Source of the DNA: Gammaproteobacteria bacterium
GTDB lineage: Bacteria > Pseudomonadota > Gammaproteobacteria > Steroidobacterales > XN24
NCBI GenBank assembly: GCA_024640085.1
Contig: JAHEFR010000001.1
Span: forward strand, 62,001-126,000
DNA: 64,000 bases
Reading direction: 5' to 3'
Position numbers and translations under genes: made by a program. Below are positions 18,401-56,638 of this stretch, piece after piece (positions within the stretch are counted from its first letter, which is position 1; each line of letters opens with the position of its first letter). The notes beneath the pieces were generated by a model. It ran no database searches. It had not been told where the DNA came from and saw only the letters and a program-made list of their open reading frames with translations.

Positions 18401-20425
18401 TCAGGTAATCCGCATCCCCGGCGCCGCTCCCGTGTCAGGCGAAAGGAGAAAGACCTCATCCCCGCCGGGCCCGGCCGCCAAGATCATGCCCTCGGAGACG
18501 CCGAACCGCATCTTTCTGGGCGTCAGGTTAGCCACCACGATCACCATCCGGTCCACCAGGTCTTCGGGCCGATAGGCGGTCCGGATTCCTGCCAGCACCT
18601 GTCTGCGGTCCTCGCCGAGGTCCAGGGTCAGCCGTAACAGCTTGTCTGCTCCCTCGACGGGATCCGCTTGCAGAACCCGGGCCACTCTGAGGTCGATCTT
18701 GCGGAAATCGTCGATGCCGATCTCCGGCGAAGCGGAATCCGGTTCGGCGGTTTCGGTGGATTTACCGGTACCGGCGAGGCTGTCTCGGGAAGCGTCCAGC
18801 ATGGCCGTGACGGCCTTGGGGTCGATCCGCTTCATCAGGGGCCGAAACTGCATGATTTGGCTGCCGAGAAGTGGTCTCTCCAGGTCCGACCAGGCCAGGT
18901 CCCCTTCGCCAAGAAACTCCTCCGAGGCAGCGGCCAGCGCCGGCAACACCGGCTTGAGCATGATGATGAGGCATCGAAAGGCGTTCAGGCCCTGGGTGCA
19001 GACCGCCTGCACTTCGCGCTCCCGGCCCGCCTCCTTGGCCATGAGCCAGGGCTTGTGGTGGTCGATGTACTGATTGGCCTGGTCTGCCAGTGCCATGATC
19101 TGGCGGGTGGCCCGGCTGAAGTTCCTGGCCTCGTATGCTGCGGCGATCTCCTCGGCCGCGGCCACGAAAGTTTCGTGCAGCAGCGGCTCCGGGAGCTCGT
19201 CCGACAGCCGGCCGCCGGACAGGCGGCTGATAAATCCGGCGCAGCGGCTGGCGATGTTGACCAGCTTTCCGACCAGGTCCGAGTTCACTTTCTGGACGAA
19301 ATCCTCCATGTTGAGGTCGATGTCCTCGACCCCCGGCCCCAGCTTGGATGCGTAGTAGTACCTGAGATACTCCGGGTCGAGGTGATCAAGGTATGTCCGG
19401 GCGGTGATGAAGGTCCCGCGGGACTTGGACATCTTCTCGCCGTTCACGGTAAGGAACCCGTGGACGAACACCGCGCTGGGGAGCCGGTAGCCCGAAGCCT
19501 CGAGCACCGCCGGCCAGAACAGGGAATGGAAGTAGACGATGTCCTTGCCGATGAAGTGATAGAGTTCGGCCTGGCTGTCAGCGGCCCAGAATTCGTCGAA
19601 ATTTACGTCCTGTCGCTCTTTCGCCAGATGGGCGAGGCTGGCCATGTATCCCACCGGCGCGTCGAGCCAGACGTAGAAGTACTTGCCCGGCATGTCGGGA
19701 ATCTCGAATCCGAAGTAGGGCGCGTCGCGGCTGATGTCCCAGTCCTGCAGACCGGACTCGAACCACTCGTCCAGCTTCTTGCGGACGCTGTCCTGAAGCG
19801 CTCCGCCCGCCACCCATTCCCTGAGCGAGGCATCGAAGTCGCTGAGCCGGAAAAAGAGGTGTTCCGACTCACGTTCGACCGGTCGGGTGCCGGACAGGGT
19901 CGATATCGGCCCGATCAGCTCCGATGGGCTGTAGGTGGCCCCACAGACCTCGCAACTGTCCCCGTACTGGTCTTCCGCACCACAGCGCGGACACGTCCCG
20001 CGCACGAACCGGTCGGGCAGGAACATGCCCTCCGCCTCGTCGTATGACTGGCGTATTGTCCTCTCATCCAGGTGCCCGCCGGACCTGAGGGCGGCGTAGA
20101 TGCCTTCTACCAGTTCCCGATTCTCTGTCGAATGCGTGCTGTGGAAGTTGTCGAACCGGATATTGAAGGCCGCGAAATCCTCCACATAGCGTTGGTGGTA
20201 ATGGCTGATGATCTGCTCGGGGTCGATGTCGTCCTTGCGGGCCCGGATCATGATCGGAGTCCCGTGAGCGTCGCTGGCGCAGACAAAAATGCAGCGGTTG
20301 CCCATGAGCTTCTGGAATCGGACCCAGATATCGGTCTGGACGTATTCAACCAGGTGGCCCATATGTGCCAGGCCATTGGCATAGGGCAGGGCCGCGGTGA
20401 CTAGTATGGAACGGATCTTGGTCAT
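18401..20425 (-). CDS. metG: Methionyl-tRNA synthetase
   Basis: A 674-residue class Ia synthetase. It has the HIGH-type motif in [13 protein letters not shown], a zinc knuckle [18 protein letters not shown], and KMSKS in [13 protein letters not shown]-terminal tRNA-binding dimerisation domain ([20 protein letters not shown] to the end) is typical of the long bacterial form. The start at 20425 ([15 protein letters not shown]) is chosen over 20458 by the family N-terminus. In many gammaproteobacteria metG neighbours mrp/apbC and dcd. Here those genes lie just beyond the kinase-pilT-pilU insertion. Confidence 0.97.
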
Positions 20426-20497
20426 GTTGGTGGCAGACGGGTCGCGAGGGCTGCGCATTATCTCACAGGCCCGCCAGGCGTCGGGACAGCTGCGCGG

Positions 20498-21565
20498 TCA
20501 GCGATTGGGCTGATCGGCGTAAATCCGGAAGCGGTCCTTGGAGATGGCTTTTTCATACGCCTCCCGTCCGGCGATGAACCTCCGATCCAACAGGTCCTGG
20601 AGAGCGGTATCCATGGTGAGCATGCCCGCCTTGGCGCCGGCCTGCATGGCGCTCTCGATCTGGTCGAGCTTGCCCTGGCGCAGCAGGTTGCTGACCGCAG
20701 CCGTGTTGACCATCACCTCGAAGGCCGGGACGCGACCCTCGGCGCCTTTTTTCTTGCACAGCTGCTGGGAGATAACGCCCCGCAGCGACGTGGACAGCAT
20801 GGTGCGCACGTGAGATTGCTTCTCGGAGGGAAACGCATTGACGATCCGGTCCACGGTCTGGATTGCGCCATTCGTATGCAGCGTGCCCATCACCAGGATA
20901 CCCATCTCTGCTGCGGTAATCGCAGTGCTCATGGTCTCCAGGTCACGCAGTTCGCCGACCAGGATCACGTCGGGGTCCTCGCGTAGGGCTGAATGGAGGG
21001 CGTCGGCGAAGCTCGGGCTGTGGAGGCCTATCTCACGCTGACTGATCAGGCAGTTCTTGCGCTCGTGTACGAATTCGATCGGATCCTCGATGGTCAGGAT
21101 ATGGCCCTTCATGCGCCGGTTGATATCATCGACCATTGCCGCCAGGGTCGTCGATTTTCCCGAGCCTGTCTTCCCGGTGACGAGGATCAGTCCGGAACTT
21201 TCCTTACAGAGCTGGCCGATGACGTCGGGCAACCGGAGCTCTTCAAGGCTCTGGGCCTCCGCCGGGATACTGCGCATGATCGCCCCCATCCCCCCCAGGT
21301 GGCGGAATGCGTTGACCCTGAACCTGGCAAGGCCCTCAACTGCATACGCGAAATCGACCTGGTCGTTGCGGGCCAGGGTATCGGTCGCCGAAGTCGGAAT
21401 GATCTCGCTGAGCGCTTCCCTCAGGGCGTCCTGGGCCAGTGGTTCCTCGCGCATGGTGATGAGGTCGCCGTATAGCCGCATGCGCGGCGGGTCACCCGCG
21501 ATCAGATGCAAGTCGGAGCCGTCGCGCTCTATCACTTCCCGGAGTAAGTCGCCGACCACGCTCAT
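20498..21565 (-). CDS. PilT/PilU family twitching-motility ATPase (downstream copy)
   Basis: A 355-residue hexameric retraction ATPase of type IV pili. It has Walker A GKTGSGKST, the Asp box ILTIEDPIEFVHERKN, Walker B DPDVILVGELRDLET, and the His box LVMGTLHTNGAIQTVDR. The start at 21565 (MSVVGDLLREVIERDGSDLHL) is chosen because the upstream in-frame ATG (21703) would run into the neighbouring gene. It sits 4 bases after a second PilT-type gene, as in pilT-pilU pairs. The core pilT genes usually sit near proC/yggS, so this pair may be an extra, kinase-linked set. Confidence 0.9.
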   Translation of the reverse strand: MSVVGDLLREVIERDGSDLHLIAGDPPRMRLYGDLITMREEPLAQDALREALSEIIPTSATDTLARNDQVDFAYAVEGLARFRVNAFRHLGGMGAIMRSIPAEAQSLEELRLPDVIGQLCKESSGLILVTGKTGSGKSTTLAAMVDDINRRMKGHILTIEDPIEFVHERKNCLISQREIGLHSPSFADALHSALREDPDVILVGELRDLETMSTAITAAEMGILVMGTLHTNGAIQTVDRIVNAFPSEKQSHVRTMLSTSLRGVISQQLCKKKGAEGRVPAFEVMVNTAAVSNLLRQGKLDQIESAMQAGAKAGMLTMDTALQDLLDRRFIAGREAYEKAISKDRFRIYADQPNR

Positions 21566-21569
21566 GTGC

Positions 21570-22673
21570 CTACCCTGCCCCTGAATCTTCCATGTCCAGC
21601 TTCGGAAGTATGCTGGTATCGGTGACGAAGCGGACGAACTTCTTCTTGTCCTCGGCAAAGCGGTAGGCATCGTCGGGATCGACTTCACGGGCGTTGATCG
21701 CATCGAGCAAGGCCTGATCCATCAGCTGCATGCCTACAGACTTACCGGTTTGCAGCTGCGAGGGGATGAGATGGACCTGGTCGGCCGTGATCAGTTTCGC
21801 GATTGCCTTGGTGTGGGTCATGATCTCGAAGACAGCCCGGCGGGCCCGGCCGTCGGCCGTGCGCACCAGCACCTGGGTGACGACGCCGACCAGGCTCTGG
21901 GAGAGGAACGTCTTGGCCTGACCCCGCTCCATGGCGGGCAATGCGTCGATGATCCTGTCGAGGGTCTTGACCGCGCTGGTGGTGTGCAACGTCCCCAGCA
22001 CGAGATGGCCGGTTTCGGCTGCCGTCATTGCCATGCGGATGGTCTCGGTGTCGCGCATCTCTCCGACCAGGACGACATCCGGGTCCTGTCGCATTGCCGC
22101 TCTGACCGCCTCGGCGAAACTCTTGAAATGGGTGCCGTACTCACGCTGGACGATCTGTGACTTCTTGCTCCCGTGGACAAACTCGATGGGGTCTTCCAGG
22201 CTGATGATATTCTGCTGCCGCGTCGTGTTGATGTGATCCAGCATCGCTGCGAGGGTAGTCGATTTGCCGGTTCCCGTTGCGCCGGTCACCAGGACCATGC
22301 CCTGGTGGTGATCGCAGAGTTCGCGCACGATCTCGGGTATGCCGAGGCTCTCCATGGTGGGGACCTCGTTCGGGATGTACCGGAAGACCGCGCCGACGCC
22401 GGTGTCCTTGTGGAAGACATTGACCCTGAATCGGCCACCGTCCTCGGCCACATAAGCGAAATCCAGATCGTTACCGCCCGTAAACCGGTCCTTCTGGGAC
22501 TCGGTCAGGATCTCGAGCACGTATCCCTCAAGCTCGGCGTCCGAGAGATCGCGGAACTTGATCGGCATCAGATCGCCCCGCAGGCGGAGCATCGGCGGAA
22601 TTCCGACGGCCAGATGAATGTCGGAGCATCCCTGGGCCAGGCCGAGTTTCAGGAACGCGTCAATTCGAGCCAA
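21570..22673 (-). CDS. PilT/PilU family twitching-motility ATPase (upstream copy)
   Basis: A 367-residue PilT-type ATPase. It begins MARIDAFLKLGLAQGCSDIHL and has Walker A GATGTGKSTTL, Asp box ISLEDPIEFVHGSKK, Walker B DPDVVLVGEMRDTET and His box LVLGTLHTTSAVKTLDR. The C-terminal tail (FAEDKKKFVRFVTDTSILPK) extends beyond PilT and resembles the longer PilU-like or accessory PilT homologues. It is only 3 bases downstream of the HEAT-kinase gene, so the three are almost certainly one operon. The two ATPases are clearly different in sequence and are not a recent duplication. Confidence 0.9.
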   Translation of the reverse strand: MARIDAFLKLGLAQGCSDIHLAVGIPPMLRLRGDLMPIKFRDLSDAELEGYVLEILTESQKDRFTGGNDLDFAYVAEDGGRFRVNVFHKDTGVGAVFRYIPNEVPTMESLGIPEIVRELCDHHQGMVLVTGATGTGKSTTLAAMLDHINTTRQQNIISLEDPIEFVHGSKKSQIVQREYGTHFKSFAEAVRAAMRQDPDVVLVGEMRDTETIRMAMTAAETGHLVLGTLHTTSAVKTLDRIIDALPAMERGQAKTFLSQSLVGVVTQVLVRTADGRARRAVFEIMTHTKAIAKLITADQVHLIPSQLQTGKSVGMQLMDQALLDAINAREVDPDDAYRFAEDKKKFVRFVTDTSILPKLDMEDSGAG

Positions 22674-22676
22674 GTA

Positions 22677-25073
22677 TCAGACCTCTCCGGGCAGGAAGCG
22701 TTCGAACATCTCTTTCAACTCTTCCATTGAATCATACCGTTTGGCTTTGTCCACGGACATGCACCGGGAGACGCATTCAGAAAGATCCTCCGGTAGAGTT
22801 TCGTTGATCTCGTGGGCTTTCTTGGCCTTGCCCTGGACATGCTGGTACATCACCGACATGTGGTCGCCCCGGCTGTAGGGCGGGATACCAGTCAGCATCT
22901 CGTACATGATCACGCCGAGGCTGTAGATGTCAGCCTTCTCGTCCACCTGCTTGCCCAGGATCTGCTCGGGGGCCATGTATTTCGGCGATCCGATCACGTA
23001 CCCGGTCTTGGTCAGCTGTGTATCGCCGCTGCTGCGGGCCGCGGCCACGCCGAAATCCACGATCTTCACCAGTTGCTCGTCATTGATCAGGATGTTGGCG
23101 GGTTTCAGATCGCGGTGGACGATACCGGCATGATGCGCCACGGCCATGCCCGTGGCGATGTCGCGACCGAATCGCATCGCCTTCTCGATGGGCAGCGGCT
23201 CCTCGTCCTTCACCTCGTCCCCGAGGGTGTGGGACGGGAAATACTCCATTGAGATGGCATACAGCCCTCCCATATAGAGGAAGTCGTAGATCCTGATAAC
23301 GTTCTTGTGTGTGATCATCCTCGAATAGCGCAACTCGTGCACGAAGCGCTTCATCATCTCCTCGTCGGAGGCGATGTTGGGATTCAGGAATTTCAGGATC
23401 AGATTCTCTTCCACGACCTGGTCGTTCATCAGCAGGACCGTGCCAAAGGCACCCTTGCCGATCTTCTTGATGAACTTGTACCGGCCTTCGATGACGTCCC
23501 CTGATTTCAGGTCGGTGATGTTCAGTTGCTGCTGGACGCCCCCCTGGCCTCCCATCATGGCGCCGATATTCCTGCCCTCGACCAGCAGTGTCTTGGTGGG
23601 TTCCGCAAATCGCTCTGCCTTCTCTGCCTCCCGTATCTGAGACGGGGAGAAGCGTTCGTCCAGTGTCTTGATCGCGGCGATGGCCGCCTGTCTGATGGCC
23701 TTGTCCGGATTCTCGAGATGTCTCGCTACGGCCTCACGAATCTCGGTGGCGCGATTCGAATCCGCCAGACGCGCCAGGGCGGCGATGGCTTCAACCTGCA
23801 CCTCGCGCTCGGTGTGGTCCACCAGGTCCATCAACCTCGGGATGTGCCGCTCGTCGCCCAGCTTGGCGACGCCGCGGATGGCGGTCGGGATAGAACGGGT
23901 CTCGCCGTGAAGCATTTTCTCCAGCGCGGGCAGGGCCCGCGTGTCACCGATCTCGGCCAATGCGTCCGCAGCGCGTTCCCTGACCCACCAATCCGGATCC
24001 TCGGTGGCCTCGATCAGCTTCTTGACCGCTCTCTCGTCGCGGGTGCTGTTCAACAGCTCGATCGCGGCGCGGCGGATGTCGTCATTCTTGTCGTTGATGA
24101 GTTCCACGACTGCGTCCACGACCCGCGGTCCCCCGATCTTTGCCAGGGCGTCCGTGGCCCGGGCGCGCACCCACCAGTCGTCGTCGCCGAGGGCCTCCAG
24201 CAGGTCCTTGATGGAGCGCGGGTCGGCAATCTCGTTGAGCACCTCGACCGCTGCCCGTCGGGCATACTCCGAATCGTCTTTCAGAGCGACGATCAGATGC
24301 CGGACGGTATCGGGATGACGGTGCCTGACGATGGTCTCGACCGCCTTGTTCTGGACCTCGACGTCCGGGTCGCACAACAGGCTGCACAGGAGTTCGATAT
24401 CCGGACTACCCTCCATGCGGCCGAGGGCGTGGATCGCTGCCTGACGGATCAGCTTGCTCGAATCTTTGAGTTGCCCCTGGATTGCCTGGAAGGCCTCGGG
24501 GCGATTCAATCTTGAAAGGATGTCGATGATATGAGCCTTGGCCACGATGTCCTTGCCTGTCAGCCGGCTCACCAGTTCAGGCATGTCATTCTCGCCTGCG
24601 GTCTCCGCGATGATCCTGAAAAGCACCGCTTTTTCGGTGGACTCCTCCTGATAGGCCTGGGTGAGTACGCGCCGTACGTCCAGTCGGCCTTTCTGGTGGG
24701 AGAGTGCCTCGCACAGGGGCGCCTTGGGGACCGACGCGTCTTTCAGGAAATCCAGGAGTCGATTGGCATTGAATCGCCGGCCCCGCCCGAGGGCCCATGC
24801 GACGGCGCCCACAACCTTCTGGCTGTCAGATTTCAGACCCCGGATCGCCTGGTCCAGGCTCTTGTCGGAGACCACCCGTGACAGCAGGTCCGCCATCCGG
24901 CGGGTCCCGGCCTTGTCAGCTGTCTCGATGCCTTCGACGATCTTCTTGACAGCTGCGCCGCCCAGCAAGCGAAGGCTCTCCACGGCCTTCTTCCCATCGC
25001 TGTCGTCGAGATCGTACTGCTGGTCTATCTTGGCGATCAGCCGGCTCGCACGAATGCCACCAAGGACGTTCAC
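22677..25073 (-). CDS. HEAT-repeat Ser/Thr protein kinase
   Basis: About 798 residues. The N-terminal 450 are HEAT/PBS-lyase-like repeats (for example DDDWWVRARATDALAKIGG and DPDWWVRERAADALAEIGD). A linker follows, then a Hanks-type kinase domain of about 265 residues at the C-terminus. Kinase motifs are complete: KIGKGAFGTV loop, LILKFL Lys, HRDLKPANIL, VDFG, MAPEQ and DIYSLGVIMYEML. No membrane segment follows the kinase, so it is cytosolic. The GTG start at 25073 has GAGGG 4 bases upstream; an ATG at 25193 would add 40 residues of Arg/Pro-rich sequence. It heads an operon with two PilT/PilU ATPases, which suggests phosphorylation-based control of pilus retraction (inference). Confidence 0.88.
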   Translation of the reverse strand: MNVLGGIRASRLIAKIDQQYDLDDSDGKKAVESLRLLGGAAVKKIVEGIETADKAGTRRMADLLSRVVSDKSLDQAIRGLKSDSQKVVGAVAWALGRGRRFNANRLLDFLKDASVPKAPLCEALSHQKGRLDVRRVLTQAYQEESTEKAVLFRIIAETAGENDMPELVSRLTGKDIVAKAHIIDILSRLNRPEAFQAIQGQLKDSSKLIRQAAIHALGRMEGSPDIELLCSLLCDPDVEVQNKAVETIVRHRHPDTVRHLIVALKDDSEYARRAAVEVLNEIADPRSIKDLLEALGDDDWWVRARATDALAKIGGPRVVDAVVELINDKNDDIRRAAIELLNSTRDERAVKKLIEATEDPDWWVRERAADALAEIGDTRALPALEKMLHGETRSIPTAIRGVAKLGDERHIPRLMDLVDHTEREVQVEAIAALARLADSNRATEIREAVARHLENPDKAIRQAAIAAIKTLDERFSPSQIREAEKAERFAEPTKTLLVEGRNIGAMMGGQGGVQQQLNITDLKSGDVIEGRYKFIKKIGKGAFGTVLLMNDQVVEENLILKFLNPNIASDEEMMKRFVHELRYSRMITHKNVIRIYDFLYMGGLYAISMEYFPSHTLGDEVKDEEPLPIEKAMRFGRDIATGMAVAHHAGIVHRDLKPANILINDEQLVKIVDFGVAAARSSGDTQLTKTGYVIGSPKYMAPEQILGKQVDEKADIYSLGVIMYEMLTGIPPYSRGDHMSVMYQHVQGKAKKAHEINETLPEDLSECVSRCMSVDKAKRYDSMEELKEMFERFLPGEV

Positions 25074-25364
25074 GGAGCCCTCGAGGCGTCGTCGCCGCAG
25101 GGGCGCGCTGTCACCAAGTCCGGCGGCGCGTGGGGACGGGGCAAAAACCGCTCGGGCAAGCCCCGGAAAGTGACGGGCAAGCTCGCGCTCCACGGGGTCC
25201 CGCGACCTGAAAAATGTCCTTTATTCCACCCGCCGGAAATCATCACAGCTACCTTACACGGCACCCGCAAGTTCGCCAAGCATACACGGCCCCCGGGTCA
25301 GGGCCGGATTGGGCTACAATTGCTCGCTCGTCTGGTCTCATCGAATCCAATCCGGAGGAGTCCC

Positions 25365-26459
25365 TTGAGTGAGTCATTGGAGTCGAGCGTCCGCTCGGCC
25401 ATCGCCAACTACACAGACCCGGTGCTGGACAAGCCGTTGGAGGACGTCGCCACCGTATCCGATGTGAAGATCGCATCGGGGGCGGTAGAAGCCTCCGTCT
25501 GTCTGTCCTTCCCGGCCTCGCGGTACGCGCCCGTCCTCGGGGCTGCCCTGGAGGAGAAGCTGCGGACTCTACCCGATGTCGAACAGGCGACAGTCAAGGT
25601 CGAGTGGGACATCCCCGCAGCACCGGTCCAGGGCGGGGTTGAGCCTCTGCCGGGCGTCAGGAACGTCGTGGCCGTGTCGTCCGGCAAGGGCGGCGTCGGC
25701 AAGTCCACGACAGCGGTGAATCTCGCCCTGGCGCTGGCCGCGGAGGGTGCGCGCGTCGGGATGCTGGACGCGGATATTTACGGCCCAAGCCAGCCCCGGA
25801 TGTTGGGCCTCAGCGGTCGACGGCCCACCAGCCCGGACGGCAAGAAGCTGGATCCTCTGATCGGTTACGGTATCCAGTGCATGTCCATCGGCTTTCTCGT
25901 CGACGAGGACGAGGCCGTCGTGTGGCGGGGTCCTATGGCTACAGGCGCCCTGGTGCAGTTGCTGAGCGAAACACTTTGGGACGACGTGGATTACCTGGTG
26001 GTAGATATGCCGCCGGGGACTGGCGACATCCAGCTCACGCTGGCCCAGCGGGTACCGGTCAGCGGAGCCCTGATCGTGACGACGCCTCAGGATATCGCTC
26101 TCCAGGACGCCATCAAGGGACTGCGGATGTTCCAGCAGGTGGAGATCCCGGTGCTCGGCGTGGTCGAGAATATGAGCGTGCATATCTGCTCCCAATGCGG
26201 ACACCGGGATCCGATCTTCGGGGAGGGCGGCGCCGAGCGCATGTCCCAGACATACAGTGTGCCGGTCATGGGCCGCCTGCCCCTGGACAGCAGGATCCGG
26301 CAAGAGGCCGATGGCGGCAGGCCGTCGGTGGCGTCTGATCCGGACAGCCCGGTGTCGGCGGCCTATATGGAACTGGCCAGGAGAACCGCGGCTGCCCTGG
26401 GAGGCCTGGCCGGAGGCGGCAGCCAGACATTCCCGAACATCGTCGTCGAGGATGACTGA
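25365..26459 (+). CDS. mrp: Mrp/NBP35 family Fe-S cluster carrier ATPase
   Basis: A 364-residue P-loop ATPase that carries and delivers [4Fe-4S] clusters (ApbC/Mrp). An N-terminal DUF59/MIP18 domain (about 1-80) is followed by VVAVSSGKGGVGKSTTAVNL with the deviant Walker A. GMLDADIYGPSQPRML and CSQCGHRDPIFGEGG follow; the last supplies the C-x2-C cluster ligands. The TTG start at 25365 has GGAGGAG 4 bases upstream. It is preferred over the ATG at 25170, which would overlap the divergent kinase gene. A possible -10 TACAAT lies at 25315-25320. The gene runs directly into dcd. Confidence 0.95.
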   Translation: MSESLESSVRSAIANYTDPVLDKPLEDVATVSDVKIASGAVEASVCLSFPASRYAPVLGAALEEKLRTLPDVEQATVKVEWDIPAAPVQGGVEPLPGVRNVVAVSSGKGGVGKSTTAVNLALALAAEGARVGMLDADIYGPSQPRMLGLSGRRPTSPDGKKLDPLIGYGIQCMSIGFLVDEDEAVVWRGPMATGALVQLLSETLWDDVDYLVVDMPPGTGDIQLTLAQRVPVSGALIVTTPQDIALQDAIKGLRMFQQVEIPVLGVVENMSVHICSQCGHRDPIFGEGGAERMSQTYSVPVMGRLPLDSRIRQEADGGRPSVASDPDSPVSAAYMELARRTAAALGGLAGGGSQTFPNIVVEDD

Positions 26460-35530: not shown

Positions 35531-35582
35531 CGGGATATCCTGGGCGCTGGTGTAGTCTTCAGGTGGATCGCTGCGGGCCGTA

Positions 35583-35612
35583 TTGTAAGCGGTCGGGCGA
35601 AGTTTGTACTGT
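35583..35612 (+). promoter_or_regulatory. Candidate sigma-70 promoter for KARI-like gene
   Basis: TTGTAA at 35583-35588, an 18-base spacer, and TACTGT at 35607-35612 lie in the 121-base region between divergent proS and the ilvC-like gene. It would give a leader of about 35 bases before the ATG at 35652. No leader peptide or attenuator rich in Leu/Ile/Val codons is visible. Confidence 0.3.
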
Positions 35613-35651
35613 CGCCGCCCACAGGCTGGCGCCGGCGGAGGTGGAGACGGA

Positions 35652-36644
35652 ATGCGCAGGTATTACGACAAGGACATCGATCACGACTGCATCAAGGGAT
35701 GCAAGGTGGCCGTGATGGGCTTCGGGGCCCAGGGCCGGGCGCATGCCCGGAACCTGGCCGATTCCAGCGTGGATGTGGTCGTCGGGCTGCGCGCCGATTC
35801 GCCGTCGCGGAGATCTTGCGAGGCCCTCGGTCTGTCGGTGGCGGACCCCCGGGAGGCCGCAATCGCAGCCGATCTGGTTGTGATGCTTGTGCCAGACGCG
35901 GACCAGCCCGCCCTGTACCGGAGCGTGCTCGAGGCAGCCATGAAGCCCGGGTCGGCCCTGGTTTTCGCTCACGGCTACAACATCCACTTCGGCCACATCC
36001 AGCCGAGGCCCGACCTGGACGTGATCATGGTGGCGCCGCTGGGGATTGGGGAACAGGTGCGCAGGACCTACGTCGCGGGCGGGGGTGTCCCCGCCCTTCT
36101 TGCCGTGTCCCGGGATGCGAGCGGCAGAGCGGTTGATCTCGCGCTCGCTTACGCGGGCGCCAACGGTCATGGCCGCGCCGGCATCTTCGAGACGAGCTTC
36201 CGCGAGGAGACCGAGACGGACCTGTTTGCGGAACAGGCCGTGCTCTGTGGCGGCCTGACGCACCTGATCGTCGCCGCGTACGAGACCCTCGTCGGCGCGG
36301 GCTATCCGGAGGAACTGGCGTACTTCGGCTGCCTGCACGAGGTCAAGCTCATCGCCGACCTCGTACACAGCCGGGGGATCGCGGGAATGCGGGGATCCAT
36401 CTCCAGCACCGCCGCCTTTGGCGACTATTCCCGGGGGCCTCGGGTCATCAACGATCGCAGCCGCGAAGAGATGGCGAAGATGCTCGAGGAGATTCGCAAC
36501 GGCGAGTTCGACCGGGAACTCTCCGCCGAGGCCCGTGCTGGATTCCCGGTACTCCGCCGCGAGCGCGCCCGGGCCGAATCTCATTCCATCGAACAGGTGG
36601 GTAGTCGCCTCCGTGCCATGATGCCGTGGCTTGACGAGGACTAG
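35652..36644 (+). CDS. Ketol-acid reductoisomerase-like protein with altered active site
   Basis: A 330-residue IlvC homologue, close to the 338 of class I KARI and alignable without gaps up to residue 251. The NADP loop is [15 protein letters not shown]. His107, Asp190, Glu194, Glu230 and Ser251 are present, in [24 protein letters not shown] and SISSTA. Two invariant residues are changed: Lys130 is Leu (VAPLGIGEQ instead of APKxPGH) and Glu226 is Gly (YFGCLHE instead of YFECLHE). Both are needed for the magnesium-dependent isomerisation in characterised enzymes. The neighbour pssA is the usual ilvC neighbour, but ilvB/ilvN are absent. A normal KARI should exist elsewhere. It may be a reductase with another substrate. 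Confidence 0.85.
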
Positions 36645-36720
36645 GGCTGGTCCGGCGCCGTCATTGGAGCCCCCACGATGTGGCGCGCGGTGTGCGGATG
36701 GGTCTAAAGTGTAATCCTTG

Positions 36721-36737
36721 GCCGGGGATATCCCGGC
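36721..36737 (+). promoter_or_regulatory. Inverted repeat just upstream of pssA ribosome binding site
   Basis: GCCGGG (36721-36726) and CCCGGC (36732-36737) form a 6-base stem around GATAT, ending 7 bases before the AGGAGG Shine-Dalgarno at 36745-36750. It could be a small leader hairpin affecting access to the ATT start, or a protein-binding palindrome. Nothing else distinguishes the 114-base gap. Confidence 0.3.
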
Positions 36738-36758
36738 ACTGAACAGGAGGGCGTAACC

Positions 36759-37517
36759 ATTCGCCGGGGAATCTACCTTCTGCCGAATCTGATCACGACG
36801 GCGGCCCTCTTTGCGGGGTTCTTCGCTGTTGTCGCGGCCATGGACGGCAACTTCCACAAGGCCGCGGTGGCGATCTTTGTCGCCATGGTGATGGACGGTC
36901 TGGACGGCCGTGTCGCACGCCTGACCAGTACCGAGAGCGATTTCGGCAAGGAATACGACAGCCTGGCGGACATGGTGTCTTTCGGCATGGCGCCGGCGCT
37001 GGTCGTATACCAGTGGGGTGTGGTGAATCTGGCGGAATACGCCTGGCTGTGGGGCCGGCTTGGCTGGCTTACGGCGTTCTTCTACGCGGTGTGCGCGGCT
37101 TTCCGCCTCGCCCGGTACAACACGCGATTCGGTCTGGCGGACAAGCGGTTCTTCGAAGGTCTTCCGAGTCCGTCGGGCGCGGCTGTCGTGGCGGGGATGG
37201 TGTGGCTGTGCACCAAGTACGATTTCATTGGGCCCGTGGCATTTGCTCTGGTATTTGTCATCACGGCCGCGGCCGGCGCGCTGATGGTGAGCAACTTCGC
37301 CTTCTACAGCGGCCGGGATTTCAATCTGGGTGAGCGTATCCCGTTCGCATATCTCCTCGTCATCCCCGCGGTGTTCATGGTCATCTCCCTGGATCCGCCG
37401 CTGGTGCTGTTCGGACTGTTTTCCCTCTATGCCCTGTCCGGCCCCATCCTGAGCGGCTACCGGCTTGTCAGGCGCCGTCGCCGCCGGGCCGAGAGGGACC
37501 AAAGCAAGGCCGCCTGA
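36759..37517 (+). CDS. pssA: CDP-diacylglycerol--serine O-phosphatidyltransferase
   Basis: Makes phosphatidylserine, the precursor of phosphatidylethanolamine. A 252-residue membrane protein with the signature MDGLDGRVARLTSTESDFGK and EYDSLADMVSFG, and about seven hydrophobic segments. The family N-terminus RRGIYLLPNLITTAALFAG runs well upstream of the first ATG (36840), which would delete 27 conserved residues. No ATG, GTG or TTG exists in frame between the upstream TAA (36705-36707) and that region. ATT at 36759 has an ideal AGGAGG 8 bases before it and gives the conserved start. An AUU start is therefore inferred, as known for infC and pcnB of E. coli. It lies downstream of the ilvC-like gene as in relatives. 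Confidence 0.9.
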   Translation: MRRGIYLLPNLITTAALFAGFFAVVAAMDGNFHKAAVAIFVAMVMDGLDGRVARLTSTESDFGKEYDSLADMVSFGMAPALVVYQWGVVNLAEYAWLWGRLGWLTAFFYAVCAAFRLARYNTRFGLADKRFFEGLPSPSGAAVVAGMVWLCTKYDFIGPVAFALVFVITAAAGALMVSNFAFYSGRDFNLGERIPFAYLLVIPAVFMVISLDPPLVLFGLFSLYALSGPILSGYRLVRRRRRRAERDQSKAA

Positions 37518-53600: not shown

Positions 53601-55550
53601 TCACCAGCGTCGTCGACGGAGCACCGCTGCAAGTGACAGCAGCGGAAGCCACCAGAGCGAGGCGCCGCCGCCCCCGCCCGATCCACCCGAGGGTGGCGGA
53701 GTCGTCGGTGGGGTGACCGCGGTCTCACGGCAACCGTCGGGCGCCGCAGGGGCTGGCGACGTGGGGTCCGAGGCCACGAACGGGGCGAAACTGCAATCCG
53801 TGCCCCCCAGGTCCGTCGGGCTACCGTCCTCGTCTTCGTATCCGACCCAGTGGCCGTTGCTCCAGTTCACCGACGTGGCCGGATCGGCGTCGAGGCGCGA
53901 ACCGGTGATGTCCCTGGCGTCGACGGCCACGATCATGGCGACGGGTGTCGCCGCCGGGAATGACGCGGGCACGATGAAGCCGGTCTCAAGGGCGTCGTCG
54001 CTGTAGCGCACGACGCCGTCCTCGCCGATTGCGGTGCGCCAGGACAAGGCGTCGCCCGACACCGTCTGGTCGCTGGTCGCAGCAAGCGCGGGGAACTGCA
54101 GCCTGATGTAAGGAAAGACAGGCACCGACAGCCCCCGGTAATTGGTCAGGACGCCCTGGGCGTTGCGCCAGCGCATGGGCCTGTTGAAGCCCAGCCACAG
54201 GCGGTAGCTGCGGCCGGGGACCAGGGCCCGGTTGATTCCCACATCCAGGCGGCGGCCGGCGCCTTCCGCGACCCAGGCGGCGTCGTAGCGGATCTCTCCG
54301 GTTTCGGCATCCCGAATGCGGGCCGCCCGCAGAGCCGGCTTGCCTGCCTGGGTGTAGAAACCGGCCAGCAGCATGTCAGCGATCTCGTCCCGCATCCGGG
54401 CGACCTCGCTGTCCGGCAGGATGAATCCGCTGTGGCCGTGGTCCGTCCCGAAATCGCCTGGCTGCAGCGGCTCGATCTCGAGGGTCCAGGAGGGGATGCG
54501 CAGCGTGCTGGCAAAGTAGTCGGCCGTCGTCCCGATGAGATTAGTGGATGGTCCGTAACGGTACTTGCCGTTGAGAACTGAGCGCATGACGCTGACCAGG
54601 TCCCGGGTGATCGCATCACGCCGGTTGTCGCCGATGAGCGGCGCCAGGAAGATCCGGGAGAACGAGTGGGCATCCGTGAACATGCGCAGGCGATTGGCCG
54701 GCCCGAGGTCGGCTGCCGCCAGCAAGGCCGCTGACTCGGATTCGCTCTGGGGCTGCGGTCCCCGGTAGACCAGGCTTATACGGTTGTTGCTGGAGCCGCC
54801 ATTCTGTCCGAAGCCCCTCGGATGGTTTCGGTTCAGATCCACGCCATAGAAATTGTCGGCGGTAAGGTCGATGTCCTCGTCCACTACGCCACCGCTGGAC
54901 GGGTGTCGCATGTTCTTGCGCCGCATTCGACCATCCCGGGGCTGGAGTTCGCTGGCCGTGGTCCGGTCGGGGAATCGCTGCGCCTGCAGGAAACCGTCCA
55001 CGTTGAGCACCGGGACGATGACCACGTTGAAGTTCTCGTGGAGGTACTGGCCGAACCCCCCGTCGTTGGCGATCTCGGTCAGTTGCTCGAAGACTTCCGT
55101 CACCGCTTCCGGTGACTGCCACTCCCTGGCGTGGATCGTACCGTTGATCAATGCGGCGCCCTCGGTGACGCCGTCCACGGTGCTGCTATTCGTATCGCCG
55201 ATTCGATAGGCCCAGATATCCCGACCGGCGGCAGTCTGGCCGACGATGACGCCCTCGACACCCGTGGAAGCCGCATCCAGGCTCTGATGGCGTTCGTGCA
55301 GGCTCTGGTAACTGCGGAATCCGTCGATTCCCGTGAGCGAGTCCACCGGTATGGGCACGTCGAAACCGAGCGCGATGTTGTTGCCCGTGTTGTCGTTCCG
55401 GGTGTAGGTCAACTGGACGTCCCGGCAGCTGGGATCATCGGGGTTGACGATGTCGCCGAAGTCGTCGAACACGCATACGGCGCTGGCCAGCATGGGCAGA
55501 CCCGCCAGCGCCACGCCCATCGATATCCTAGCGATTAATCGCGTAGCCAC
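53601..55550 (-). CDS. Zinc carboxypeptidase, M14 family, with GlyGly-CTERM sorting tail
   Basis: A 649-residue secreted metallopeptidase. The signal peptide is MGVALAGLPMLASA. The M14 catalytic domain has zinc ligands in NGTIHAREWQSPE (His140, Glu143) and FTDAHSFSRIF (His295). The catalytic Glu lies in WTLEIEPLQ near residue 358. A beta-rich C-terminal region follows, then a Pro/Gly linker, and the last 25 residues GGGGGASLWWLPLL plus AAVLRRRRW. This is a GlyGly-CTERM tail, the recognition sequence for rhombosortase. No rhombosortase gene is visible here. It overlaps the upstream gene by 16 bases. Confidence 0.92.
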   Translation of the reverse strand: MATRLIARISMGVALAGLPMLASAVCVFDDFGDIVNPDDPSCRDVQLTYTRNDNTGNNIALGFDVPIPVDSLTGIDGFRSYQSLHERHQSLDAASTGVEGVIVGQTAAGRDIWAYRIGDTNSSTVDGVTEGAALINGTIHAREWQSPEAVTEVFEQLTEIANDGGFGQYLHENFNVVIVPVLNVDGFLQAQRFPDRTTASELQPRDGRMRRKNMRHPSSGGVVDEDIDLTADNFYGVDLNRNHPRGFGQNGGSSNNRISLVYRGPQPQSESESAALLAAADLGPANRLRMFTDAHSFSRIFLAPLIGDNRRDAITRDLVSVMRSVLNGKYRYGPSTNLIGTTADYFASTLRIPSWTLEIEPLQPGDFGTDHGHSGFILPDSEVARMRDEIADMLLAGFYTQAGKPALRAARIRDAETGEIRYDAAWVAEGAGRRLDVGINRALVPGRSYRLWLGFNRPMRWRNAQGVLTNYRGLSVPVFPYIRLQFPALAATSDQTVSGDALSWRTAIGEDGVVRYSDDALETGFIVPASFPAATPVAMIVAVDARDITGSRLDADPATSVNWSNGHWVGYEDEDGSPTDLGGTDCSFAPFVASDPTSPAPAAPDGCRETAVTPPTTPPPSGGSGGGGGASLWWLPLLSLAAVLRRRRW

Positions 55551-56638
55551 GTGGGCACCTCTGCCACCAGTCGGGGCGGCGCCTCCGGGTCGTGGGCGAA
55601 ATCCGCAAGCGCCTTTGCGGCAGTCTGCGACGCGCTCAGTCTCAGACCGAGGAGGGCGTGACGACGGGTCGCCTCGTCTGTCTGCGACCCGAGCACGTTG
55701 GAGAGCCGCGCGATGACCTCATCATCTCCGAGCCGTGCCAGGGCGGCGGCCGCGCTGGGCCCGGACGCCGCCCCCAGGGCGCGAAACAGGAAGTTCAGGG
55801 CGTCGGGTTCCGTGGCCGCCAGGCGTCCGAGCGCCAGGACGGCAGCCGAACCGACGTCGTCTCTGGCCGAGGCGATCACCAGCAGCGGGACGGATTCTCC
55901 GCCCCATGCGGGTGACTGAATCTCCCTGATCGACAACAGTGCGGCGTCCGCTGCCCCCTCGGCCAGCACCTTTGACATCAGCGCCACGTCCCGGGTCCTG
56001 GCCGCCACCGCGGCCGCGAACATGCCCACCGGTTCGCCGTCGTCGAGGGCGCTCATCAGCGCCGGCTGGAAGATCGCCAGGTACCCGGGCGGTGCTTCCC
56101 GCACCGCGTCGACAGCGCCTTCGCGCTCCGCGTCCGAGGCCCGGGCAAACGTTGCGACAACGGCGAGATCGCCGGCGGCCAGGGATCGGGCCGCTCGTGA
56201 TCTGGCGGCGTCTTCGGACCACGCTCTTCTCACGTAGCGGGTGGTGGCCGTGAAGTCGTAAAGCGGCCTGACCTCGCGGTAGCCGTGTTCGTCGGTCCAT
56301 ATCAGGGTCTGGCTCTCGTAGTTCCCCAGTTCCCTGATCTGGTTCTCCAGGGCGGCGTCAGGCTGCACCCCGGCGGCGGCCATTATGCCATCGTGCAGGA
56401 GGCGCTCCCGGGCCGGATCGGCCAGCCCGGGTTCCGCCTTCATCGTGGCCAGATGGTTCGCAAGACCGGCGGCGTCTCCGTCCCGGGCGAGGACATCCGC
56501 TTTTCTGGCCATGGACTCGTAACGGGGGTCCGCGGATGCTTTCATTGCCTGCCCGAGCGACATTGTCTTGGGTCCGGCCGCGGCGGAGGCCGCCAGCAGC
56601 ACGGCGATAATCCCGACAAATTTCAGCGGACTACGCAT
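55535..56638 (-). CDS. Secreted alpha-helical repeat protein of unknown function
   Basis: A 367-residue protein with an N-terminal signal peptide (VGIIAVLLAASAAAG). The mature part is entirely helical and Ala-rich (LANHLATMKAEPGLADPARE, then VGSAAVLALGRLAATEPDAL). Short repeats of about 30 residues in the second half resemble HEAT-type solenoids (GPSAAAALARLGDDEVIARL). I could not place it in a named family. It is co-transcribed with the M14 peptidase downstream, with a 16-base overlap. It lies divergent from the M1 peptidase, so a role in the same exported-protein set is inferred. Confidence 0.7.
   Translation of the reverse strand: MRSPLKFVGIIAVLLAASAAAGPKTMSLGQAMKASADPRYESMARKADVLARDGDAAGLANHLATMKAEPGLADPARERLLHDGIMAAAGVQPDAALENQIRELGNYESQTLIWTDEHGYREVRPLYDFTATTRYVRRAWSEDAARSRAARSLAAGDLAVVATFARASDAEREGAVDAVREAPPGYLAIFQPALMSALDDGEPVGMFAAAVAARTRDVALMSKVLAEGAADAALLSIREIQSPAWGGESVPLLVIASARDDVGSAAVLALGRLAATEPDALNFLFRALGAASGPSAAAALARLGDDEVIARLSNVLGSQTDEATRRHALLGLRLSASQTAAKALADFAHDPEAPPRLVAEVPTWLRD

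Follow-up and report, generated by a model that had tools for sequence, protein, structure and literature searches.

Why does a gene for a HEAT-repeat Ser/Thr kinase stand directly in front of two genes for PilT-family ATPases, and does the kinase have anything to do with these motors? We have pursued this question in a 64,000-nucleotide stretch of a gammaproteobacterial genome of the order Steroidobacterales (assembly GCA_024640085.1, contig JAHEFR010000001.1, positions 62,001 to 126,000 of the forward strand), which as a whole is called the window here. The three genes, termed KIN, PTA and PTB, all lie on its minus strand. KIN (22677..25073, GTG start) encodes a Hanks-type Ser/Thr kinase of 798 residues with HEAT repeats, an assignment that is based on Pfam and on orthologues, and its start is backed by orthologues with the same first residue. 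It is followed after 3 bases by PTA (21570..22673, TTG start, 367 residues) and, after another 4 bases, by PTB (20498..21565, ATG start, 355 residues), which both encode PilT-family ATPases. The initial annotation, which was made from the letters of the DNA alone, had described this arrangement correctly, though it omitted the strand. We find that the triplet is a conserved and co-inherited unit in Gammaproteobacteria that bear type IVa pili (T4aP), and a functional linkage of the kinase with the two ATPases is well supported.

Conservation and co-inheritance of the triplet

Conservation was first considered within the window's order, in a sample that comprised the window's own genome and 38 relatives (39 genomes in all). 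Most of these carry a full-length KIN relative, at 45-72% identity and far above other kinases, and KIN, PTA and PTB follow one another in all 29 loci whose contig continues. Gene order and strand of the triplet are conserved far beyond chance. A survey of this kind had been suggested in the initial annotation, and with 29 of 29 same-order loci as well as loci from other orders it reveals a widely conserved unit, not a peculiarity of this genome. The tight spacing, which the annotation had taken as evidence that the kinase acts on the motors or on a protein bound by its HEAT region, did not hold up in the same way. Intergenic gaps among orthologues range from -14 to 146 bases, so that the exact spacing of 3 and 4 bases is not conserved, and the evidence lies instead in the conserved order and the co-occurrence of the genes. 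In the window, the KIN stop codon and the PTA start share one reading frame (TGA TAC TTG, 22671-22679); because the gaps differ in relatives, a read-through fusion of the two is unlikely to be meaningful.

Linkage within the order by itself proves little, because the whole neighbourhood is conserved there. The gene order is dcd and mrp (divergent), KIN, PTA, PTB, metG and then, where the contig reaches, the rnf genes. In the window, the gene for a Mrp/ApbC-type P-loop protein is the divergent upstream neighbour (25170..26459, plus strand; the listed open reading frame may begin too early), and metG is the downstream neighbour (18401..20458, minus strand), followed by rnfABC, an arrangement conserved within this order only. 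One could argue from the conservation of the entire dcd-mrp-...-metG-rnf region that the triplet is merely part of a stable neighbourhood and that the kinase has an unrelated target. In Pseudomonas aeruginosa, dcd, apbC and metG presumably lie close together without the triplet. Outside the window's order, however, the succession KIN, PTA, PTB persists although the dcd, mrp, metG and rnf neighbours are gone.

Presence and absence of the genes also speak against a mere neighbourhood. Among 276 evenly drawn Gammaproteobacteria, the window's genome included, 46 match KIN at 1e-60, and 35 (again counting the window's) carry an orthologue by score. The PTA model separates orthologues (541-716 bits) from the next group, PTB and then PilT, which score at most 428 bits. 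By this measure PTA is complete in 33 of the 276 genomes and present as a cut copy in one more (G299), and all 34 have the kinase; PTA without the kinase was found in none of the 276. In the one remaining kinase carrier (G196), PTA is cut by the contig end. The co-occurrence has a Fisher p of about 1e-42, which is an overstatement because the species share ancestry and the test ignores this. In one genome (G183) the kinase (L192) and PTA-PTB (L237) are on different contigs, and neither break is at a contig end; kinase and motor pair are therefore retained together even when unlinked. Both kinase and PTA are missing from G203, whose genus-mate G077 has both. Similarly, the kinase is absent from G034, which has only three PilT-family genes, and present in G021 of the same genus, which has five. 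No kinase was found in G037, where the contig ends inside PTA, for which reason we attribute the missing kinase to an assembly gap.

With the order and class samples taken together, the triplet is spread over about 32 family labels. No further carrier turned up among 298 other genomes sampled across the phylum, a set with a large share of well-finished genomes of the same class. A scan with general kinase peptides returned about ten uncultured orthologue-bearing genomes, labelled as Gammaproteobacteria, Proteobacteria/Pseudomonadota and Chromatiales. The trees of KIN, PTA and PTB are congruent, with distance correlations of 0.91, 0.86 and 0.82; out of 36 well-supported KIN splits, 24-26 are shared by the PTA and PTB trees, and 1 and 2 are in conflict. 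Conservation outside the order, together with the locked presence and absence, rules out a chance neighbourhood. We consider it very improbable that the target of the kinase is unrelated and the triplet just a stable neighbourhood, and a bystander kinase is unlikely.

Distant HEAT kinases with 27-29% identity to KIN (L205, L208 and L209, one in G174 and two in G271) have no PilT neighbours. They do not belong to the KIN family and are possibly an outgroup with another partner.

The kinase and the two ATPases

KIN falls into three parts: HEAT helices at about 2-474, a linker at about 475-525 and the kinase domain at 532-787. Pfam matches HEAT_2 (PF13646) across six stretches with 7e-65 and Pkinase (PF00069) at 532-787 with 5e-53, and the HEAT region is all-helical in a high-confidence model of residues 2-474, which together identify a HEAT-repeat protein. 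The AlphaFold model (mean predicted local distance difference test (pLDDT) 83.6, predicted template modelling score (pTM) 0.50) displays helical repeats to about 474, a disordered linker and a kinase fold; it defines the domains, not their relative placement. The kinase fold is closest to PknB (Foldseek 4e-17, about 32% identity), and since kinase matches dominate this search, it is uninformative on relatives of the HEAT region.

Every catalytic residue of a Hanks-type kinase is present: the glycine loop (G539/G541), K561, E580, H653-R654-D655, K657, N660, D673, G675 and P702-E703. K561, E580, H653, R654, D655, K657, N660, D673, G675, P702 and E703 are identical in all 64 KIN orthologues, which rules out that KIN is a pseudokinase. 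The activation loop surrounds T685, T688 and T690 (LTKTGYVIG..., encoded at 22985..23020, minus strand); T688 is present in 64 of 64 orthologues, and position 690 is T or S in just as many. We take this to be the position where PknB autophosphorylates. KIN is not a PASTA kinase, since it scores 277 bits against a cut-off of 450 for the PknB/Stk1 equivalogue and contains neither a PASTA domain nor a membrane span. Because no stretch is hydrophobic enough for such a span (the maximum over 19 residues on the Kyte-Doolittle scale is 1.06), KIN can be regarded as cytosolic. Intact motifs, a cytosolic location and some 450 residues of HEAT repeats before the catalytic domain had all been claimed beforehand, and our analysis agrees on each of these points.

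The HEAT region is not uniformly conserved. Majority identity per 20-residue block is 0.64-0.83 at residues 261-376, which comprise four HEAT repeats, and 0.42-0.60 for 1-260 and 0.28-0.50 for 381-520. The segment at about 261-376 (encoded at 23946..24293, minus strand) contains two DxWWVR repeats, and its conservation equals that of the kinase core. This suggests a fixed ligand, such that the HEAT arm would be more than a spacer and this face a dedicated docking surface.

PTA and PTB pass as T4aP ATPases of the PilT/PilU family by their scores against the NCBIfam model pilT_fam (TIGR01420; 419.5 bits for PTA and 448.4 bits for PTB, cut-off 319.1) and by their intact motifs. Walker A, the catalytic glutamates and the His box (K137, E160, E205, H230) are invariant in both. 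Their relationship to known motors was examined in a tree of 191 sequences, which included solved PilT and PilU references, 66 PTA and 64 PTB. There PTA and PTB form two pure clades that are sisters with support 1.0, and together they are sister to canonical gammaproteobacterial PilT (support 0.93) and away from PilU. Judging from this placement, they are the product of one old duplication within the PilT lineage and not a copy of the pilT-pilU pair. The designation as a PilT/PilU pair thus has to give way to one as separate sister paralogues of PilT. Neither protein is the canonical PilT orthologue, because they have their own clade with support 1.0, nor the canonical PilU orthologue, because both are on the PilT side of the tree. 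A further feature of PTA is its conserved C-terminal tail (RFVTDT..LPK), where 63 of 66 sequences have T or S at position 351; T351 is a candidate phosphosite only.

Pili, phosphorylation and the possible direction of control

Is the machine that PTA and PTB serve the type IVa pilus? In 61 carriers of the unit, canonical PilT (counted above 490 bits) was detected in 58 and PilQ (above its cut-off) in 57. The gaps are mostly in incomplete or fragmented genomes, and one genome that is 98% complete (G069) is still without PilQ above the cut-off. A PilT-like match is present in 226 of the 276 genomes of the class sample, and these include all 35 carriers (p about 5e-4). PTA and PTB co-occur with the T4aP machine, and a retraction function is predicted for them.

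The window's genome has genes for seven T2SSE ATPases; canonical pilT and pilU are among them, and so is a third, PilU-like gene. As the initial annotation had anticipated, the canonical genes are separate from the triplet: pilT has a yggS-like gene as its neighbour on contig C20, and the best solved match of pilU (L068:7800-9002, same contig) is PilU of entry 9n32. The third, PilU-like gene (L068:6729-7799, contig C20) comes immediately after pilT-pilU. At least five PilT-family genes are found in most carriers, and retraction-type paralogues are numerous in the window's order.

That canonical PilT and PilU are already present would fit a situation where PTA and PTB power a different filament or secretion machine, such as a second pilus or a pseudopilus like that of type II secretion, and where the kinase controls this machine and not the T4aP; the several secretins that the window's order has besides PilQ would fit as well. 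However, no other pilus or secretion gene was seen to recur next to the unit, whatever the lineage, and the closest relative of PTA and PTB is PilT, not DotB, TraJ or GspE. Also, the kinase was not found in the five same-order genomes without any PilT-family gene (G011, G017, G018, G030 and G031). We therefore regard a different machine as improbable.

Phosphorylation enters the picture through the neighbours of the unit in other orders. There, an FHA gene follows PTB in 15 loci, and upstream on the opposite strand there is a PP2C gene in 9 loci and another FHA gene in 7. A small gene of about 155 residues with sub-threshold similarity to DUF6812 immediately precedes the kinase in 26 other-order loci. 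A few of the loci in all these counts stem from identical or almost identical genomes. As to the small gene, it is seen about 0.5 kb upstream of the kinase, for instance, in L187, L191, L194, L195, L198 and L202; a search of 17 same-order genomes, the window's among them, did not find it, and its two-row structure model has a mean pLDDT of only 37.

The reading that we favour, with slightly more confidence than doubt, is that KIN-PTA-PTB is an accessory T4aP retraction-motor module under Ser/Thr-phosphorylation control. PTA and PTB would be two active PilT-type ATPases that work beside canonical PilT and PilU, probably as hexamers able to dock on the same PilC platform. KIN would be an active PknB-like kinase that presumably autophosphorylates at T688 and T690 of its activation loop, and the partner bound by its conserved HEAT face (about 261-376) would in the simplest case be PTA, PTB or the pilus platform. 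A phosphate added to a motor, with T351 in the PTA tail as candidate acceptor, would then switch the engagement or the activity of the accessory motors, and in other orders the FHA protein would read the mark and the PP2C phosphatase erase it. We infer the direction from kinase to motor, the partner, the phosphosite and the effect on pilus dynamics, as well as control of the accessory motors through the HEAT arm. In its most specific form the proposal is a so far undescribed Ser/Thr system, in which the HEAT-arm kinase binds and phosphorylates a dedicated PilT-derived motor pair and so directly controls retraction; some orders would add FHA readers and a PP2C eraser, and pili could in this way have a regulated second gear. 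We put this form forward tentatively, as our doubts here somewhat outweigh our confidence.

Several observations weigh against control of accessory retraction motors by KIN. PTA has diverged from PilT in the AIRNLIRE-like motif, which it has lost and of which PTB keeps a part (NLIRQGKLDQ), and for this reason its role may be other than that of a standard retraction motor. Genes of one pathway can share a conserved operon even if the kinase does not have the other products as substrates. Furthermore, in the window's order the unit has no FHA or PP2C genes nearby; similar ones, together with a different kinase, are found on the same contig at a distance of about 100 kb. In that cluster (L239, contig C44, about 186.5-189 kb), a small Hanks kinase, a PP2C and an FHA protein are encoded in one row. 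Its FHA protein shares 49% identity with the FHA protein linked to the unit elsewhere, and the cluster and the linked genes elsewhere taken together support phosphothreonine signalling as the unit's business.

The main rival to our proposal has the information flow in reverse. PTA and PTB, or the engaged pilus machine, would be the input, the HEAT arm would sense motor state (retraction, load or surface contact), and the kinase would broadcast it to cytoplasmic targets, for example FHA proteins. The conserved HEAT face fits such a sensor, the readout would be the FHA and PP2C genes that accompany the unit in other orders, and canonical type IV pili already signal surface contact via Pil-Chp, as described in a review on motor control (PMC11656802). 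On the other hand, the unit contains no dedicated output gene within the window's order, and the motors are the kinase's only constant partners. On balance we think that this reverse flow is unlikely, if less so than a different machine.

Should control by KIN of the accessory motors be borne out, type IV pili would have a phosphorylation switch dedicated to retraction, and this would account for the four or more PilT-family genes that many Gammaproteobacteria keep. Pilus control has so far been explained by chemotaxis-like histidine signalling, c-di-GMP (cyclic di-GMP) and transcription, mostly at the extension motor. The gene set is compact, and the presence/absence pairs G077/G203 and G021/G034, each from one genus, offer natural comparisons.

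Elsewhere in the window, two long open reading frames on the minus strand (35559-37502 and 55535-56638) have no Pfam match at 1e-5.

Comparison with known systems

KIN resembles PknB-type kinases (PknB of M. tuberculosis, Stk1 of S. aureus) in its kinase fold and its paired activation-loop threonines, but unlike these it has no PASTA or membrane region and carries an N-terminal HEAT solenoid. An example of regulation by a kinase, a phosphatase and an FHA protein is PpkA-PppA-Fha of type VI secretion. The other-order loci are similar to it in that kinase, FHA and PP2C genes stand together beside an ATPase component of a machine; here, however, this component is a PilT pair, and the locus showed no secretion-system cluster.

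With respect to the motors, PilT and PilU are tandem T4aP ATPases, of which PilU is a PilT-dependent retraction motor (PMC6762196). PTA and PTB likewise belong to TIGR01420, have all ATPase motifs and are tandem motors encoded side by side. Unlike PilT and PilU, they are mutual sisters in a separate clade beside PilT, and they are found with a kinase, not with yggS/proC. Additional PilT paralogues are known as PilT2 in Neisseria (PMC10790696), PilT1-4 in Geobacter (PMC5065972) and PilT2 in cyanobacteria (PMC12288463). Like these, PTA and PTB are extra PilT-family motors beside the canonical one; in contrast to PTA and PTB, no kinase partner is mentioned for them in the abstracts or passages that were consulted.

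With respect to control, a 2024 review of pilus motors, in the passages available to us, describes histidine-kinase and c-di-GMP inputs, and its passages on phosphorylation mention no Ser/Thr kinase acting on PilT (PMC11656802). In the open-access literature we found nothing relevant on PilT phosphorylation, on loci that combine kinase, FHA and PilT genes or on a KIN-PTA-PTB module, in line with the initial annotation, which knew of no phosphorylation control of PilT through such a fusion. The post-translational control proposed for KIN is shared with Pil-Chp, PilZ/FimX and c-di-GMP control as presented in those passages, but these systems use a histidine-aspartate phosphorelay or c-di-GMP and act mainly on PilB. 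The parts of the KIN-PTA-PTB unit are of a known kind, and their combination appears to be new.

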